A stretch of DNA of 64,000 nucleotides from Dictyophora rubrovolvata (taxonomy: Eukaryota; Basidiomycota; Agaricomycetes; Phallales; Phallaceae), in contig CP114117.1 in NCBI GenBank assembly GCA_029959195.1, forward strand, positions 1,860,001 through 1,924,000, in the 5' to 3' direction. How positions within the stretch are numbered: the first letter of the stretch is position 1; the number at the start of each line of letters is the position of its first letter. The position numbers and the translations under genes are program-made. The notes beneath the pieces are model-generated. The model was given only the letters and a program-made list of their open reading frames with translations, made no database searches and was not told where the DNA came from. Shown here in pieces: positions 13,601 through 25,899 of the stretch.

Positions 13601-15559
13601 TCATTCATACCGTCCCCTTTTCGCTCCACCGCCTCCCGTTCCAACAGCAACAACAACGTTCCTGATATTATTTTTTCCTTTGCCGGAAATAGTTACAGGA
13701 GAAGTTGATTCTCCTCCAAGTTCATCATCATCACTCTTACCGCCGCCGGACTTGGAAGAAGTAGAAGAGTTCAAACTCGACTCTCCTCCTTTTGCTTCTT
13801 CCATAGTCGAATTTCTCTCCACGACGTCTGGGTCCCGTTCTCGTCGTTTTCCCAACACTTGCTGCTGTTGCCCCGGTATCGATGTCGCGGCGGAAGCATA
13901 TCCGTCCGCATTTTCAATGCCAGCATGTATACCAAGATTAGACACACCACCCATATTATTATCGTCAGAATTCATCGTTGCAACGCCTTCTCCGTTCATG
14001 TTCACACCCACGCCCACATTGACCATCCCCGCCGCCAATCCCCCCCAATGCGGATGAGAACGAGAATGCGGATGTGAGACTGACGAGGACGAATTCGAGT
14101 CGGAGACCATGTTGGGTACAACACCAACGCCGACGCTTAAAGGAACAGAAACTGGTATGGGAACGGGATCGGTCGAACTATGCACGTCGTCGACACCAAT
14201 TTCGCTTATACTCGCACCAGCACCAGCACCCCCACCGGCACCGGAGCCACCACCAGCATTACCACCAGCATTACCACCAGCGCCACCAGTTCCGGAGGTA
14301 TTCCCAGTATCAAAACCGAAATCACTCGCACTAACAATATTGTGCAATATAAATGCATACTGCTCATCTGAGAGTCTGAAACCTGCCAACGGGTTAATTC
14401 TCGCATCCGTAGACGTCATAGGCGGTTGAGGGTGGAATAGTTGTAGTGGAAGAGGGGATGTGGGGGGTCCGCCTCCTCCTCCTCCTCCTCCTCCTCCTTG
14501 CTGTTGTTGTTGTTCAGCTGCGAAACTTTGGTCCTGCTGCTGGGTGTGAGGGGGCGAGGAAGAGGACGACGGGATTGAAAGCGATTGAAGAGGCAGCGGA
14601 GGTAGAGGATCAGACGGCGGTCTTGAAGCTGGCACAATTTCGTTCGGATCTTCTTCATCTTCGACGTCTTCTTCTAGCTCTTCATCTGGATCTACGTCAT
14701 CACTGTCCATGTCCACATCGCCATCAGCACCGGCTCCACCTCCACCACCACCAGCCGACGACGACGACAAGCGTGCACGCGACGATCGCGTACTAGTCCG
14801 TCTCCGCGCGGACGAAGATCTAGCAGCACCTGCAGAGGACACGCCCGAACTCGATACAAGACCATTATTATTATTACTACTACTATTACTTCTCGACTTT
14901 GATTTGGAAGCTGGAGCGGGACCGATAGTTTTGCCTGTTGATCTGTTTGCGGCGTTGCGATGGAGGTGGTACGGATATGGATCAATCAGACTTTGCGGCC
15001 TGTATACCATTTCTTGAATTGATTTAAGATGCATGAGGTGTTTCTAAAAAAAATAAGAGTTAGAAATTTATTTTTTTGTTTGTGCTTCTATTTGTGAGGA
15101 CGTACTTCAACCATCTCGAATAAACCATCTCTCGTAAAGGGCTTGGGAAGAATATCATTCATGCCATGAGAATAATACATCAAAATTTCAGACGGATTCG
15201 AATTAGACGTCATGGAAATAATAGGTGTCATAGGATCAAATTGTCTGATCAGAGACGTGGCGGAAACACCATCGAGTTTGGGCATGACAATATCCATAAG
15301 CACGAGATCGTACTTTTCCAAATTCATCTTATGAACGGCAGCAAGACCGTCAATAGCAATATCGGTTGTGCATCCGAAAACTTGGAGGAACTTTGTGGAG
15401 AGTTTGCGGGAAACGGCGTCGTCTTCGACGAGGAGAACGCGAGGGGGTACAGCCCATCCTGGAACGAAGGTTGAACGGCGGACACGAAGGCGTTGAGAAA
15501 CGACTTTGGGTTTCGTCAAAGATGTCGAGGCAGATGTCGAGGCAGAAGTAGTAGGGTGG

Positions 15560-15596
<37 letters not shown>

Positions 15597-15615
15597 GACT
15601 AGTGGGAGCAGTGTG

Positions 15616-15646
<31 letters not shown>

Positions 15647-18386
15647 ATAGCCTGGGCTGTCATGACGGTGGGAAGTACGCCCATTCCCGCAACAAAAGAA
15701 GAGTCCATAGGAGGAGGATCAATGTCGCCAACAGAATTCACATCCACATTCATGGCCATCTGTGAATGAAGTTGAATACTGCCAGGAGAACCACTGTTAG
15801 GAGTTAAACCCAAGCCATTGAAATTCATTTGCAATGAAGTAGGATCGAATGACCACGTGCCATCATCCGGTGCGTTATCTGAACGAGGAAAGAGATGACC
15901 GACCGTGAAAACTTGGAGGCCTGGGAATGATTCGCCTCTAGCTGAGGAGGATGCTGCGGCGGCATTCGAAGATGAGGGATTTAAGCGCGAGCTTGTGGTT
16001 TCGGATAGGGAGGCGATGACTGCGCTTAAATTGAGGTTGTTGTTATTGGTATTGCTGTTGTAGGAGGGATCAACAGGGTGATGGGAAAGAGGGCGAGGCG
16101 GGGAAGGGTGGTCATCCATCAAGACGGAAAGAGAAAGAGGAAGTGGGGTGGAGGTACGACTACGACTGATATTGTCAGTAGAAGGGCGTGCACGAGAGAG
16201 CTGTTCGATACGTTGAAGAGCATCCTGTTTGGAGAGGGGGAGTGACGGGGAGACAAAAGCATTTGCGAGGGATGCTGGTGATGGTGGAGAAGTCGTAGAG
16301 GCGGTGGGCAATGTGGACAAGGTGGGAGTTCCTGGAGCAGCGAATTGCATGCCTGCGGTATTGGCTCTCCTGGCCATCTCGTTCATCTGTTCGAAAGATG
16401 CGCGAGCGATGTCTGATTCAGGGTACGCGCCGTTCATTATTCTCTGCGCCTCCGAGACAGGAACAAACTGGTTCTCGAGAGTTGAAGGAATAAAGTTGAA
16501 TGATGACAAGGTCTTTGCTTCCTTCAGATTGCGTGTACTGTTGATGGTGCTGCTGTTGATGGTGCTGTCGTTGTCGTCGTTGTCGTTGTTGTTGTTGCCG
16601 TTGTTACTGGCACCTTCGCTCCTACTATCATTAATACCAGCACTTGCGCTTGTGGTCGCACTGGCACTGACACTGGGAGCACTAGCACTCCCGCTAGCAG
16701 TATTCGTAATAGCATTAGCGGTAGCATTGTCAGCTTGTTTGCCATTTTCGATTTGCAAAAAATATTGAATGAGGTTCTGCAAGAGACCGTCCTGCTGGGC
16801 CATGTTTCTCTGAAAATTGACCATTTCATTCAAGACAGACTGATAGTTCTGCTCAATGCTACGGATATGAGTTGTGAGATCCCTAACGGTACGATTAAAA
16901 AGGTCCATTTGAGATTGTATTGCTTGAATTACGGGAGAGTCTGTGAGTGACACGGTAGGATATTGAGTAGGAGGGCCTGGGGTAATAGTAGTAGCAGGGG
17001 ATGCGGGAGAAAGGGCGCCGCCGCTGTCGTTGGTTCGTGTATGCGCATGAGTTGCGGCGCCAGTGTTAGAAGTTGCGACGGGGGCGGTTGTGTCGGTTGT
17101 GGTTGTGGTTGCTGGTGCCGTTGGTGCCGGTGCCGAGGCTGATGCCGGGGTTGATGATGACTTTGCAGTAACAGCGACTTTGCGCTGAGACGGCACTTTG
17201 CGCTTGATATTCTCGAGGGCATCCCTGTTGTTAGCCTGGAAGTCTGGATGTTTGAATGTCCAAGCATGTTCTCCGTATGCAGCATGGTGAGCAGACACGG
17301 CGTCGGGATCGTTGTTCTTGACCTTGTGAAAGTCGTACTTGTTGAGCTGACGGACAAAGGAAGCGAAATTGGAATGTTTGAACATTCGAGGGAGAATCGA
17401 CTTTGTGAACTCGGTGATGTCTTTGATGACAAAACTGTCGCCGGACGATGTCCAGGAGACAATATCGTTGAATAGATTGTCCTGCAACATTCTACAGTGG
17501 GGAATGAGCAAAATCAGCTTGTTAGAATATCAGACACGTACTTGTACAATTTCTTGACAAAATCACTGGTCGGGGGCATTCCATCGTCGGTGTCTTTAGA
17601 GGTATCATTGTTGTTCAGCAACTTGGGCTGCGAAGTCGACGAGGGAGGAGGATGGGAGATGGGAAGGGGCTGCGAGAACGACGAGGACGAGGCGGAGGAA
17701 GAGCGGAGAGAGGGATGAGAGGGAGGAGGGGGGTGAAGGGGAGGAAGGGGAGGTGCAGTGGAAGTATTGTCGCGGTGGTGGTGGGAGGAGGAATGGTGGT
17801 GGTGACTATGGTGACTGTTATGACTATTATGACTGGCATAGTTGCCGCTGTTATTGCCATTGCCATTGGTATGACTGCTACCGTTGCTGCCACTGCCACT
17901 GCCACTGCCACTGCCACTGCCGCTGTAGTGGTGATGACTGTGACCATGGTGCAGAGGCGGAGGTAGAGGGGGCGGAAGAGGAGGGGGTTTCATGTCGTGT
18001 TGCAATCTGCGCAGTGGCCATGGGAGTTGGCGGGGGTGAGGGGGCGGGGATAGAGGGGGAGGTGGAGGGTGAGAGTGCGAGTGCGAGTGTGAGTGGGGAT
18101 GAGAGTGGGGATGAGAGTGATAGTTGTTGGGCGGTGGGAATCTGCCTGGGGAGAGTGGCGGTAGAGTGGAGGAAGAGCTCGGGTGGGGATGGGAATGAGA
18201 GTTGTTGGATCGGAACGACGACGGCGGAGGGAGATGGAGGGGAGGAAGCTGAGGGTAGTGTTGATGTGGGTGTGAGTGTGGATGCGAAGGATGCGAGTGC
18301 GAGTTGTTATGACTGGTATTTGGTAATGATGATGACGAAGATGATGCGGATGATGCAGTCGAAGATGATGACGGGTGTCTGTCCAT
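13601..18386 (-). CDS. SKN7: SKN7-type transcription factor: HSF DNA-binding domain plus response-regulator receiver
   Basis: Two-component output regulator for oxidative and osmotic stress. Three exons: 18386-17542, 17491-15106 and 15043-13601. Both introns are GT..AG and phase-consistent, giving 1,557 residues. The order is: a Ser/His/Pro low-complexity N-terminus of about 265 residues; the HSF domain from DFVKKLYK, spliced to MLQDNLFNDIVSWTSSGDSF, through SFVRQLNKYDFHKV; a coiled coil (IQSQMDLFNRTVRDLTTHIR); and a long Ser/Thr-rich linker. The receiver follows, with acidic pocket LLVEDDAV, phospho-acceptor Asp in LVLMDIVMPK, Thr in SMTSN and Lys in ILPKPF. A further 480-residue Gly/Ser/Gln-rich tail ends AKRGRYE. 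Many fungal SKN7 proteins are well under 1,000 residues, so this one is unusually long. All phosphorelay residues are intact. The phosphotransfer partner is not in this window. Confidence 0.95.
14466..14512. repeat. (CCT)n / (TTG)n trinucleotide run in the SKN7 tail
   Basis: A pure CCT run followed by TGT/TTG repeats. On the coding (minus) strand it encodes adjacent poly-Gln and poly-Gly tracts in the C-terminal arm, a likely site of length variation. Confidence 0.8.
15549..15647. repeat. (TAG)n and (ATG)n runs in the SKN7 linker
   Basis: Two neighbouring trinucleotide runs: TAG repeats at about 15549-15597 and GAT/ATG repeats at about 15618-15647. Read on the minus strand they encode poly-Thr and poly-Ser just upstream of the receiver domain. 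Confidence 0.8.
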
Positions 18387-18928
18387 ATCTGCTGCAGAGT
18401 ATTAGAATATTATAGATATCAGAGACCGCCCTCCCCCCTAATAATCGAACGCGTCTAGCCTTCGAAAAAAGCTGCTGCTATACAAAGTCTAGAATTGGTA
18501 TCAATGCGAAACGAGAAAGGGTCTAGACACACAGCACTTACTAGAGTCTATATGTAGATGAGGGTGTTAAGGTGGCAAAGTCTCCTGTATAGAGTGGTGG
18601 TGTGCCTTTCTTTTCTCTACAAAGTCGCCCTTTTTTCTCCACACTATGTTTTGCGTTTTTTTGCCCTTCCCTCTTCCCTTTTTCAATTCCAACTCCCAAC
18701 TCCGTCTTCGCTCTTTTTTTTCCCTATATACCGACTTTTTAGCATATTTCCCCCCAATCGATCACCGCCTTGTCCGCACACAGGCACACACAAGCACGAT
18801 GCCGACTCCACTTGGCTCCACTTTCGGTCCGATTGCTTCCGCGCCTGAAGACAAATATTATTTTATTATTATTTAATCGACCGTTGTGTCGTCTCTATAC
18901 ATCCTTCAATAAACACCCTACTATCACC
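18387..18928. other. Divergent spacer upstream of SKN7 and of the tRNA gene
   Basis: About 540 bp. Pyrimidine-rich stretches lie at about 18610-18750, with TATATA at 18723. It should contain the SKN7 promoter (minus strand). Short frames here show no family features. Confidence 0.4.
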
Positions 18929-19174: not shown

Positions 19175-19915
19175 ATGCCATCTCCCTCATTTGACCCTTG
19201 GTTCGCCTCCCGTCGTTTTGGCATCATCATCGACGCAGGTTCATCTGGTTCCCGACTCCAAATTTATTCATGGCTCGACAACAATAATCACCCTCCACAA
19301 GCAATCCTTCCCGTTGTAGAGAAAGGCTCAAAGGACCCAGACAACTGGGTAATTAAAATTGAACCAGGTAATGATGCTATTGTTGTTGTTGTTGTTGTTG
19401 TTATTATTATATGAACTCAAAAAAATCAATCTCTTATTTCTAGGAATATCATTCTTCGCCGGTTCTCCAGACAAAATATCCCACCATCTCGCACCATTAC
19501 TCCAACGTGCAAGAGACTACATACCCCCTTCTTTGCATTCCCAAACTCCTCTATTTCTATACGCTACCGCAGGCATGAGGCTGTTACCCGCCAAGGACCA
19601 GATTGCCATTCTCGAGGCTGCGTGTGATTTTCTAAGATTCCATTCCGAATTTCGCGTCAGCGATAGTGACAGTTATGGCGACGATGACGATGAGCAGCAG
19701 ACATTATACGACAATGTATCCCATCCCCGCGCTTGTAAGGACCATGTCCGTGTCATCTCCGGCGAAGAAGAAGGCCTATTCGGCTGGATTGCCGTCAATT
19801 ATCTTATGGATGCTTTCCCTTCCAACTCAAACTCAGACTCAAACCCGCCATTATCATATGGTTTCCTCGACATGGGAGGCGCAAGTGCCCAAATCGCTTT
19901 CAAAGTCGATTCAAA

Positions 19916-20014
<99 letters not shown>

Positions 20015-22157
20015 TTCACTTCCACTCATGCCTGTCACACTTAATCTTCTCAATGGTCAATCCATCCATCATGATGTTTTTGTTACTACTTGGTTAGGAT
20101 ATGGCACTAACCAGGCTAGGGAGAAGTACGTTGCCAGGATCAGTGCTCAAGCTCAAGCTACTCCCGGCGATGCTATACCAGATCCTTGTCTTCCTCGTGG
20201 ACTATCAATGCCTGTTTATGATGTTGGAACTCGACAAAATCCAATCGTTATAGAAAATGATGTAGAGGACGAAAGTGATTCCCGTATGGAACCCAGCTTA
20301 TACCTCCGCGGGACGGGCTCTTTTGACGAATGTATTTCTCTATCTGCTGAACTGCTGCTTAATGTCAATACCTCCTCTTCCTCTTCCTCCAACACTCCTC
20401 CCCTTCCACTGCCCTTTCCTCTCCCGCTGGAGACAACCCCTTTTGTCGGTATCTCGGAATACTGGTACACCTCTGAGCATCTTTTCGGGCTCGGGGGCGT
20501 ATACGACGATGCCGCATTTGAAGCCACCGCCAAGAAATTTTGTGCGGTGGGCTGGAAGAATATGGAGTTTCTTTATTTAGGTTTAGGTGAAGGCGATGAA
20601 TTTGGCGATGGCGATTTATCGTCAGATTATTCAAGTTGGACTCGGCCGCATTCAAAGTATGCTTCTAAAATTGATGCTCACAGGCTCGAAATGCAGTGTT
20701 TCAAGTCCGCGTGGGTGATGAATGTTTTGCATTTGGGGCTGGGGATGCCCAGATCGCGAATACTAGAGGTTGAAAAGGGAAAAAATCGTGAAGATATCGT
20801 TTTTGTGGGCGTCGCAGGTCAAGATGACGGTGCAACGACCATGACGAAGACAAAGCCAATGTTCCAGAGTGTTGATACAATACGCGACACGAGTATTAGC
20901 TGGACACTGGGAAAGATGGTGTTGGAGGCTGGTCGAGACGTAAAAAGAGGTCTGAAAAACGAGAATAATAATAATGATCGACAAAAGCAGAAACCCAAAG
21001 TTCCGTCGCATGTTGTTGATGATACTGTTGTTATCCCCGCTGGTGCTGACTCCTCTACCCATATATATCATCTTTCGCCGCAGCACGTTTCTCCCTCGTC
21101 ATCATCAGTCTCCTCGTCGTCACCTTTCGTTCTTTATCTTTACGCAGTAACAGTTGTGGTATTGTTCTTGATTTCTTATCGAGTAGGCGTGTGGTACCAG
21201 GTTAAAGTGGCGTTGAGGAAATGGTGGCGTAAAGGATCCGGTCAAGTAGTGCTAAATGGTATTGGCAAGTTGGGAAGATACGGCGGTGATGATGGTCAGA
21301 ATGGCGGCGGTCTGGACGAGAACGGAGCCGAGCAGCTGGAAACGGGTGTCTTTGAAACGGGCAAGCAATCGAGGTTTCTTTCGGTTTTGTTATCTGTGCG
21401 GAGGAGTATCTTTACCAAATTTGCGCATCCGATGAGGTCGAAAAATTCGGAATCGTATCCTATGAATAGGCATGCGGTTATGAATGGATATAACAACAAA
21501 GAACAACCTAATAATTCGGACGACTATTATCATCATTATTATTATCACCGTAATAAGGCAACGTTGCTTGCGGAGTCAACCTCTATCATCGAGTTTAATC
21601 CAGACTCGGACTCCTATTATCATTCGAAACTGGACCGCGTCATACATCGTTCAGCGTCATTGCCTGTCTCGCTATCGTCATCACCTCAGTCGCAACCCCA
21701 GCCTCAAACTCAATCACTACACCCCTCCTTGTCGTCTTCATATTCCAACTCTCCCGCATCACTATCAACATACACTTCCTTGTCGTCGTCTTTTCCATTC
21801 CCTGTCACGTCTAGTACCACCCCAACAACAGCAGCAGTTGCAAATGGAACAGCAGGCACGGCTCTCACAACTGCTTTAACGACGCAACCTCTAAACCATT
21901 TCGCACAGTCGAGGTCTCGGAATTCATCACAGGTTAATTTGTTGGCTAATCCCAATTATCTCGGTGGTAGTACCGGCACCAGCACCAGCACCAGCACCAG
22001 CACCATTACCACTACCACTAGTAGTAGTGCTTCGACTTTTGGAGTTAGAGCTGGATCCGCTGGAGGAGGTTTGCAAGCTCGATCCGCGAATTCTTCTCAA
22101 GCTAGTTTGATATCGCTGAAAAAACGAGCGTATGAATATGCGGTGTCAAGTGGTTAG
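19175..22157 (+). CDS. YND1: GDA1/CD39-family nucleoside diphosphatase (Golgi apyrase, Ynd1-like)
   Basis: Hydrolyses luminal nucleoside di- and triphosphates, supplying GMP or UMP for nucleotide-sugar exchange in the Golgi. Two exons: 19175-19367 and 19444-22157. The apyrase regions are in order: DAGSSGSRLQIYSW (ACR1), FLYATAGMRLL (ACR2), GEEEGLFGWIAVNYL with the catalytic Glu (ACR3) and FLDMGGASAQIAF (ACR4). A single membrane segment near residue 650 (FVLYLYAVTVVVLFLISY) is followed by a long Ser-rich cytosolic tail. This matches Ynd1 topology (C-terminal anchor, luminal enzyme) rather than the N-terminally anchored Gda1. A perfect poly-Ser tract of 32 TCA codons lies right after ACR4. The start ATG at 19175 sits about 20 residues before ACR1, with no signal peptide. 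The gene begins about 150 bp after the tRNA. Confidence 0.9.
19378..19411. repeat. (GTT)n run inside the apyrase intron
   Basis: Intron 19368-19443 contains a run of GTT/TTG triplets ending in TTATTATTATA. It is a short microsatellite of no coding consequence. Confidence 0.8.
19917..20012. repeat. Perfect (TCA)32 coding microsatellite
   Basis: Ninety-six bases of uninterrupted TCA, in frame as Ser codons of the apyrase gene. It is flanked on both sides by AAT-TCA (Asn-Ser), so the duplicated edge codons bracket the tract. Confidence 0.95.
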
Positions 22158-23228: not shown

Positions 23229-25540
23229 CTATATCGACGGAATAGTGATCTCCCCGGCAAGTTTGAAGTTAAGAGCAGCTTCTTGAATGACAGTTTGTAT
23301 TTGCGGCGAGATCCTGTTCGTTTGAAAAAAGAAAAAGAAAATCAGTCTCAACACCACACGAGTCGATAACGAAGGGGGGGGGAAACACATACGCTTGATA
23401 ACCATCATCGGGAGAAACACCCTGAGTAGCCGGTAAATCGGGACTGAACGTTCCAGAAACAGCATTCCCGAGAGCCTGTGTAGGTGTCGCGGGTTGCAGA
23501 TTATCTTGACCCCATTGCTGAAACGTGATACCGCTAAGTCCTTGTTGGATGGCTGCTGCCGACCAGGCCTGATAAATCGCTGCTTGGACGGATGCGTTCA
23601 CAGGTGCCTGGCCTTGTATAATCCCTACCTGGGGACCGTTAAGTGTCGTTGGAATGGCACTCGAATTAGGAAAGGTGAGAAAGGTATTGTTGGATGGTAT
23701 GAAAAAGGGTGCACTGCTTTGGTCTACTAGACCGATACTAGTCATTATAACCGGTTTTTTTACCCTACAAGAATCAAATTAAAAGTTGACCTGGCATAGA
23801 AAGGATAAAATAAAGAACATACATTTGACCAATGGACGCCTGTATTTCGATCCATTCTAAGCCGGCATTAATTGTATTTTCGAAAGCTGAGAGATTGGGG
23901 TCGGGGACCTCGTAGGCATTCTGATCAGTTAAAAGTTGGCTAATGAAAAAAAAAATTAAAACCCAGGGCCCAAGAGTATATAAATAATACTTACGACGTG
24001 ACGATATCAATGCTGGGCAAAAGGAAATTACGTGAGTTCTGGAACTAATAGCGCATCGGCCTGTTCTTTGTTATAAGGTATACTTACTTCTTAATGGCGC
24101 TAATATCCAGTGAATCTACACCAAAAGAACCGTCCATAGCAGACCCAACAGTCATGCCTTGTCGTTTGATATGATGGGGGGTCGATGTTGCCAAGGGATC
24201 AGCAGCAGCCTCACGTCCGAAGAGATTACGAGGACTCCATTTCGAAAATGTACCGCGCGAACGTTTTTCAGCTGCGTTATCCCGTTGCTGCTTAGCAGCT
24301 TCCGCGGTTCGCTTCCACCTAGCCTGCCGCTCTGCAATAATTGATTTTTCTGTGAGCGAACGCCTCCGTGCACCCGGACCTGGTGAAGGGACTGGAGTCG
24401 GAGTCTGGGTGAAAAAACTCTTCGGGCATTGACTCGGAATTTGACAAAGGAAACCTGGCGATCTATAATATGTTGATGATTATGTGAATGGATGGCATGA
24501 TTAGTTTAAAGAAAGGAACATACCCTGACGCGATAATATGGTTAGGATCTAGATTTCGAACCTGCTGGCTGACAATGCTATGCCACTCGGTAATCGTCTG
24601 ACGGAATAAAAGGGTTACACAAAAAGTAAGCGAAGGTGGAGGGAGGTATACTTACCGTCGTATCACACAGTATTGTGTCATTAGGGTCCTGAAGTATACC
24701 GTTACATCTAGGATCATTCACCAGCTCCCAACTGAAAACATTTGGTTCCGAAGCGAATTGGGTGATTACGTTTCCCAGACTATTCATAAAAGTATTAATA
24801 ACAGTCTGATTTGCATAGAAGTGTGGGTGGGTCGTGAGGTTGTGGAATTGAACCCAAGCATCCGCACCGCCGAAATTGTTCGGGTACGAGTTTCTTGGGT
24901 TGTTCACCTGGGTTCCGTTTTCAAGGGTGACTGTGATGTTGCTGATATTGGAGGCGCTCCAATTATTCGTTAGTACGAAATGGACCAGGAGATCATTTTT
25001 CTTTGCGGCGTTCACAACTGCCCGAAGTCTTCCAGCGCCATTGGTATCGTTGTTGAATACTATAGTACCGTTCGGCGCTAACAACTGCAGAATCGGAACG
25101 TTGGTCTAAGATGGATGTTCAATATAACATTGGTACAGAGATTTACGCACATTAATCCAAGGTCCATTCGGTGGAATTTCGGAAACATCATTGAAGGCCC
25201 ACGTACGAACCACAGTGAAATTTTTAGAGGCTATGTCTTTCATTGTGGCGTTGATGTTGGCGTCAGACATGCCTTGTAGCCAAGGCGCATTGACCGCAGC
25301 GTATTTGAAAGGCCTTTGTCAAATACGTTGAGAAGATTCATGGAGACAGGTGCTTTTTTTCACTCACTTGCCACCCCGCATAAACTGCGAACCTACGACT
25401 GAGACGAACGGGGCGGGAGCCGATGCGGCATTCGAACGAGGTTCAACGTCGTTATTTGAAACTGTACGAGTTGGAAGCCACTTCGTAGCTGCCACCGGAT
25501 TGAAGAGAGCGGCGAGGGCAGTCAAAGCAGCGAACCTCAT
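23229..25540 (-). CDS. Secreted GH5_7 mannanase-fold protein lacking catalytic residues (pseudoenzyme)
   Basis: About nine exons with clean GT..AG introns. The start at 25540 gives a signal peptide (MRFAALTALAALFNPVAA). Family landmarks of fungal endo-beta-1,4-mannanases are clear: VSVVGSQFMRGGK, VVRTWAFNDVSE, LVHFVLTNNWS, VFSWELVNDPRCNG and ITFQQWGQDN. However, the acid/base Glu of the NEP motif is Asp (NDP). The FHLYP segment, with catalytic-site His and Tyr, reads TSQLLTD. The nucleophile segment EEYG/EEFG reads MTSIG (Glu to Ser), and the WQWGD Trp is Gln. About 110 extra residues with several Lys-Arg sites sit before the NIDIVTS strand. Many Asn-X-Ser/Thr sites suggest heavy glycosylation. 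The frame is open throughout, so I read it as a functional non-catalytic carbohydrate-binding or cell-wall protein. That last step is inference. Confidence 0.85.
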
Positions 25541-25899
25541 GGCTTAGACTCTGAGTGAAAGACGCACGCTTGGGTGGAAAGTGTTAGCCTGTGCTAGCCC
25601 TAGGTAGTCCGAGCCTAAAAGGGACCGAGTTTACGGCGACCAAACAACATGGATATTTATAACTGATAAAGAAATAATTCAAACTAGATTTTGATGATGA
25701 AGAGCCGAGGAAAGATCATGGCTCAGTTACGGGCAGGAAGGGGTGAATAACATGACATAATCAACCTTGCCGTATCAAGGCACAATACAATGGGTCCCCC
25801 ACGCTATACTATGGCGTTGGGGTACATAGTTGGTACATAGATTGAAACCAAGTTTTAAAATTTTGAGAAAATAATCTTTTTTAATGTAATGAACTCAGT
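25541..25899. other. Spacer between GH5-like and TPR-like minus-strand genes
   Basis: About 360 bp, the presumed promoter of the GH5-like gene. TATTTATAAC at about 25650, some 110 bp upstream of its ATG, could act as a TATA element. Otherwise nothing was recognised. Confidence 0.4.

Follow-up and report, generated by a model that had tools for sequence, protein, structure and literature searches.

Within the 64,000-nt stretch of DNA analyzed here (the window), one gene on the minus strand resembles those of fungal GH5 endo-mannanases, yet has other residues where these enzymes carry their two catalytic glutamates. Is such a gene decaying, or has it been kept for something other than ordinary hydrolysis, and what could that be? 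We address these questions through the structure of the gene, the residues and loops of the former active site, the signs of selection and the known proteins it most resembles.

Gene structure and homology

The gene runs from an ATG at 25540 to a stop codon at 23231-23229 on the minus strand. It has nine exons (173, 163, 450, 74, 375, 18, 117, 372 and 85 nt) and eight introns of 45-79 nt, all GT-AG, and yields an unbroken protein of 608 residues (Table 1). The predicted splice model was drawn from the sequence with guidance from homology; under it all 608 codons are open and the coordinates are exact, as the initial annotation had held in describing an intact, fully open spliced frame. The hydrophobic N-terminus is a probable signal peptide, and the C-terminal 40 residues contain no stretch as hydrophobic. 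Automatic gene finders may miss the 18-nt micro-exon that carries beta-6, and so misplace the active-site region.

A phmmer search of the PDB sequences (E up to 1) listed 15 matches for the protein, 13 of them at E 1e-6 or better. All 13 belong to GH5; 12 carry the name mannanase or mannan endo-mannosidase, and 1uuq is called Man5A. The best match was 4qp0 (3e-26), with 3ziz and 1qno at 1.5e-19. The matched fungal endo-mannanases (1qno/1qnr of Trichoderma, 3ziz of Podospora, 3wfl, 3wh9 and 4qp0) are presumably all GH5_7. All significant stretches sit within residues 28-304, and the last 321 residues (288-608), searched alone, had no mannanase match among the PDB sequences, so the alignment of the second half rests on its joint alignment with canonical sequences. 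One match of the long insertion described below, to LSm11 in the PDB (E = 0.63), was taken as chance. In Pfam, the protein gave no match up to E 10 and stayed below the gathering cut-off of PF00150 (Cellulase), unlike its paralogue, which scores 86.6 bits; NCBIfam gave no match for it.

This paralogue, a canonical CBM1 GH5 mannanase of 450 residues (G000:C1:838991-840762; contig C1, locus L018 992-2763), is the only other relative among the matches listed in the search of the 28.2-Mb genome; against mannanase structures it reaches E values down to 5.9e-96. The two proteins have a homologous barrel, with 130 of 390 aligned residues identical; unlike the window protein, the paralogue has canonical catalytic residues, an N-terminal CBM1 and a long loop only after beta-4. 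None of the eight window introns shares an alignment column with any of the seven paralogue introns, the nearest pair being six columns apart in a poorly aligned beta-6 stretch, so the introns give no dating. A motif scan of the PF00150 loci (L001-L008) was too crude for a count, with readable motifs only in the paralogue and a few others. The paralogue is suitable as an active control for assays.

For comparison of individual positions, we aligned the window protein in three ways with the paralogue and four PDB mannanase chains, using Trichoderma numbering. In one alignment, 51 of the 99 columns invariant in the five canonical sequences are kept and 48 are changed, and identity to the canonical sequences over aligned positions is 28-33%. 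Given these values and the empty Pfam and NCBIfam results, the earlier description of the fold landmarks as well conserved was too strong. The columns of Cys172 and Cys175 are retained as C246 and C259.

Active-site residues and loops of the catalytic face

A GH5_7 mannanase should show homology over the (beta/alpha)8 domain, a catalytic Glu after beta-4 and another after beta-7, and in the cleft a His and a Tyr (beta-6) and a Trp (beta-8). The homology was found by phmmer among the PDB sequences, with matches limited to the first half of the protein. The glutamates are replaced by D243 and S466, and the cleft residues are absent from columns that we verified in the five canonical sequences. 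D243 stands at Glu169 and S466 at Glu276 in all three alignments; the GAT codon of the former is one base from a Glu codon, while the AGT codon of the latter matches a Glu codon at none of its three positions. In the third alignment (localpair), the beta-6 columns are shifted so that E428 and P430 take the places of His241 and Tyr243, and His and Tyr are still absent. The initial annotation had named the same five replacements, which recur in all three alignments for D243, S466 and Q539 and in two for Q419 and L421. It had gone further in stating that all visible catalytic residues are replaced; this holds for both Glu and for the His, Tyr and Trp, and fails for Arg54 (R94) and Asn168 (N242), which are kept, and for the columns of Trp114 (W161) and Arg171 (R245), kept in one alignment. 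In the Trichoderma structure, His241 and Trp306 line the cleft. For the Arg of NDPR, PMC3928506 mentions a +2 role in relatives.

The catalytic loss is complete, yet statistically no sharper than the general divergence: two of seven active-site columns are kept compared with 49 of the 92 other columns (one-sided Fisher test, p = 0.19, one alignment), so no concentration of losses at the active site was detected. This counts against the picture of a well-conserved protein in which only the active site is lost. Nor do the data show several independent losses, as had been proposed; the losses may be old and common to a whole lineage.

As a control, profile searches provided 87 loci related to the N-terminal half, comprising 80 kept of 125 from genome_contigs (bacteria and archaea only) and seven of seven from viral_contigs. 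The search patterns contain neither Glu, and they do contain the Asn that precedes the acid/base Glu, whose conservation is partly forced. The acid/base Glu is present in all 87 relatives, and the nucleophile Glu in all 78 aligned there (nine of the 87 are unaligned at the position). Of the cleft residues, His241 recurs in 80 of the 87 relatives and Trp306 in 33 of the 35 that align at its position. At Tyr243, 82 relatives align, 41 of them with Tyr and 36 with Trp; since this Tyr is not strict, its loss in the window protein says little. As Glu occupies the acid/base position in all and the nucleophile position in all 78 aligned, none of these 87 bacterial, archaeal and viral-contig relatives is an orthologue of the kind with Asp and Ser, and a search of viral_contigs with the window protein itself found nothing. 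GH5-like genes in which a GNELR motif is present occur on viral-classed contigs (L102, L103 and L105-L107); L105-L107 match identically, look like copies of one sequence and are not independent.

The window protein differs from canonical mannanases in loop length as well. In comparison with the median of the five canonical sequences, the segments after beta strands 2 to 8 are longer by 7, 26, 10, 94, 12, 44 and 24 residues, while the six spacers change by -1, 0, +1, 0, 0 and -1 (total -1). The net loop excess is 217 residues within segment borders that were chosen after viewing the alignment and that cover 231 residues of 1qno; 10 of the 217, the beta-4 excess, are common to the paralogue. Loop and spacer totals are identical in the three alignments, although one alignment divides the excess of the beta-5 and beta-6 loops as 103 and 3. 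In GH5, the catalytic residues sit at strand ends (reportedly Jenkins et al. 1995, cited in PMC3928506), so the extra residues would surround the old cleft. An expansion confined to loops agrees with a protein that has been kept and remodelled rather than with a gene in decay.

The loop after beta-5 is long, basic and Pro-rich. Every one of the five overlapping KR/RR pairs in the protein lies there, compared with 1.9 expected by composition (p = 0.022); the other 487 residues have none, with 0.4 expected. An AlphaFold2 model of exon 5 alone, made with no alignment, contains one longer helix, which spans residues 325-356, and few other confident parts. The 10-residue blocks of this predicted helix have mean pLDDT of 74-94, while the whole model has a mean of 63.7 and a pTM of 0.28.

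Table 1. Features of the gene in window coordinates
Feature	Position	Strand	Description
TATA-box-like sequence TATAAATA	25654..25661	-	about 120 nt upstream of ATG; consensus match only
Exon 1	25368..25540	-	hydrophobic N-terminus (probable signal peptide), barrel start
Exon 2	25151..25313	-	beta-1/beta-2; R94 (= Arg54) kept
Exon 3	24656..25105	-	beta-3 to beta-4; motifs NNW, NDPRC
Post-beta-3 loop	24872..24958	-	residues 162-190, +26 vs canonical median
D243, codon GAT	24713..24715	-	acid/base position, Glu169 of Trichoderma Man5A
Exon 4	24524..24597	-	helix 4, beta-5
Exon 5	24088..24462	-	long insertion after beta-5
Post-beta-5 loop	24009..24452	-	residues 291-413, +94-103; intron 5 inside range
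Predicted basic helix	24255..24350	-	residues 325-356, in post-beta-5 loop; AlphaFold2, exon 5 alone, no alignment
Exon 6	23995..24012	-	18-nt micro-exon, beta-6 (IDIVT); both ends are split codons
Exon 7	23823..23939	-	Q419, L421, helix 6
Q419, codon CAA	23936..23938	-	His241 position in two of three alignments
L421, codon TTA	23930..23932	-	Tyr243 position in two of three alignments
Exon 8	23393..23764	-	beta-7 (MTSIG), beta-8 (FQQWG) with their loops
S466, codon AGT	23737..23739	-	nucleophile position, Glu276
Post-beta-7 loop	23566..23730	-	residues 469-523, +44
Q539, codon CAG	23518..23520	-	Trp306 position in all three alignments
Post-beta-8 loop	23407..23508	-	residues 543-576, +24
Exon 9	23229..23313	-	C-terminus, stop

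Subfamily, selection and possible function

A subfamily of this description already exists. According to Aspeborg et al. 2012 (PMC3526467), GH5_30 is fungal, had five sequences at the time and stood alone among the subfamilies in that none of its sequences has the essential amino acids; it was placed among the mannan-related subfamilies, and several members had been misannotated as mannanases. It was still uncharacterised in December 2025 according to PMC12751061, and a GH5_30 gene of Phlebopus portentosus is reported in PMC8511702 to be lower in primordia than in mycelium. We found little in print on GH5_30 beyond these three papers in the literature searched. The window protein resembles GH5_30 as so described in being a GH5 protein close to mannan-acting subfamilies and in lacking the essential catalytic residues. 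A fungal origin, too, is indicated by the 28.2-Mb size of the genome, the short GT-AG introns, the CBM1 mannanase, and the GH7 and AA9 matches. The protein is thus probably a member of GH5_30, with which we compared it by description, and not a new kind.

Its likeness to other known proteins is looser. With fungal GH5 endo-mannanases, including CcMan5C (PMC10056200), it has in common the sequence match and the conserved strand-helix spacing, and it differs from them by the replacement of both Glu and three cleft residues and by the net 217 extra loop residues. Catalysis has been lost too in Rsi24C-GH5, a Xanthomonas GH5_1 subgroup and the GH18 xylanase inhibitors (PMC3526467), some of which keep binding, and PMC8960721 presents MpChi as another non-catalytic glycosidase relative; their families or subfamilies, architectures and organisms differ from those of the window protein. 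Dead GH5 genes like this one call for caution against scoring them as mannan-degrading capacity.

Several features bear on whether the gene is maintained. When the paralogue coding sequence was drifted neutrally to 33% identity, each of 100 runs acquired at least six stops (mean 14.6); after drift to 90% identity, the frame was still open in 4.5% of 200 runs. The protein has 15 N-glycosylation sequons compared with 7.9 in shuffles (p = 0.006), none of them between residues 254 and 433. The open frame, the loop-confined length change, the sequon excess and the retained C246 and C259 argue for selection through most of the history of the gene, as far as sequence can indicate; a recent relaxation is possible. 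We consider it very improbable that the gene is a pseudogene, left to decay after an old duplication of a mannanase gene. The absence of a Pfam match and the 48 altered columns of 99 would suit such decay, but the splice sites of eight introns and the 608 codons are all intact, the length change is limited to loops with the spacers conserved, and the neutral simulation predicts many stops. The open frame, the loop expansion and the sequons likewise favor the retained non-catalytic role that the initial annotation had suggested; both its GH5_7 label and the surprise it implied are weaker than proposed because GH5_30 had already been described.

Taken together, we regard it as probable that the gene encodes a secreted, N-glycosylated, non-hydrolytic GH5 protein, most likely of GH5_30. 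Sequence signals suggest that it is secreted and glycosylated; the barrel would fold as a scaffold, ordinary retaining hydrolysis should be impossible and the enlarged loops may form a new binding face. The partner could be a mannan-type or fungal-wall polysaccharide or, alternatively, a protein. Of these we favor a glycan because part of the plus-subsite side is kept (the Trp of NNW, the Asn and the Arg of NDPR). The KR/RR sites of the long basic loop are possible places of nicking by kexin, a guess from sequence. For GH5_30, the confinement of the expansion to loops offers a concrete hypothesis, namely that a barrel without catalysis has gained a new face for binding. In a fuller version, unlikely as a whole, the GH5 barrel serves as a secreted recognition protein: catalysis would be abolished, the substrate face rebuilt by expansion of all loops after strands 2-8 and the basic helix nicked or set free by kexin, and the protein would bind a glycan of the fungal wall or of plants, with a role in organisation or signalling instead of digestion.

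Other readings account for parts of the same evidence. The protein could be an active enzyme of altered chemistry, in which the carboxylate of Asp243 still acts and the nucleophile is replaced by a second acid, contributed by one of the inserted loops or by a group on the substrate, to cleave or transfer a different glycan. The carboxylate still at the acid/base position and the retained equivalents of Arg54, Asn168 and Arg171 agree with this, as does the Ser at the nucleophile position, which resembles engineered glycosynthases; PMC3526467 leaves open 'alternate mechanisms'. The loss of the cleft-lining His241 and Trp306 speaks against it, no acid could be assigned as a substitute nucleophile, and we judge it decidedly unlikely. 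A binding protein in which function resides in the basic loop, released or nicked by kexin, instead of in the barrel would fit the clustering of the KR/RR pairs in the insertion and the lack of sequons in residues 254-433. The excess of pairs, however, is modest and was noticed post hoc in a stretch that is simply Lys/Arg-rich, and two of the sites fall within the predicted helix; we judge this reading quite improbable. Least probable, in our view hardly credible, is a decoy that keeps an inhibitor away from the active mannanase, in the way that PsXLP1 protects PsXEG1 of Phytophthora, a precedent described in PMC8960721. A canonical CBM1 mannanase is indeed present in the genome as a candidate for protection, but the 130 identical residues of 390 compare with the 67% given there for PsXLP1 and its partner, and the surface that an inhibitor of the active site would contact has been rebuilt. 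In addition, the genome contains four GH7 matches at two loci, nine PF00141 peroxidase matches at eight places (a family that includes non-lignin types) and 13 AA9 matches at about seven places, which suggest the genome of a wood decayer, and for such a fungus we would expect no host inhibitor. The inhibitor decoy of the initial annotation thus finds no support, and we retain the reading of a secreted, non-hydrolytic GH5 protein.

Neighboring genes

The window has 31 open reading frames of at least 170 amino acids, eight of which were scanned against Pfam. No carbohydrate-enzyme cluster was found among these eight. Matches above the cut-offs identify a GDA1/CD39 phosphatase and HSF/response-regulator, M16 peptidase, TOG-domain, EST1-like and DEP proteins; the adjoining gene has a TPR match below the cut-off, and one frame has no match. 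In the frame of the GDA1/CD39-family phosphatase (19353-22157, plus strand), a run of dozens of serines lies between stretches of the domain. The protein with HSF DNA-binding and response-regulator domains (15088-18401, minus strand), which we take to be Skn7-like, has long low-complexity His/Ser/Pro stretches, as does the adjoining frame.
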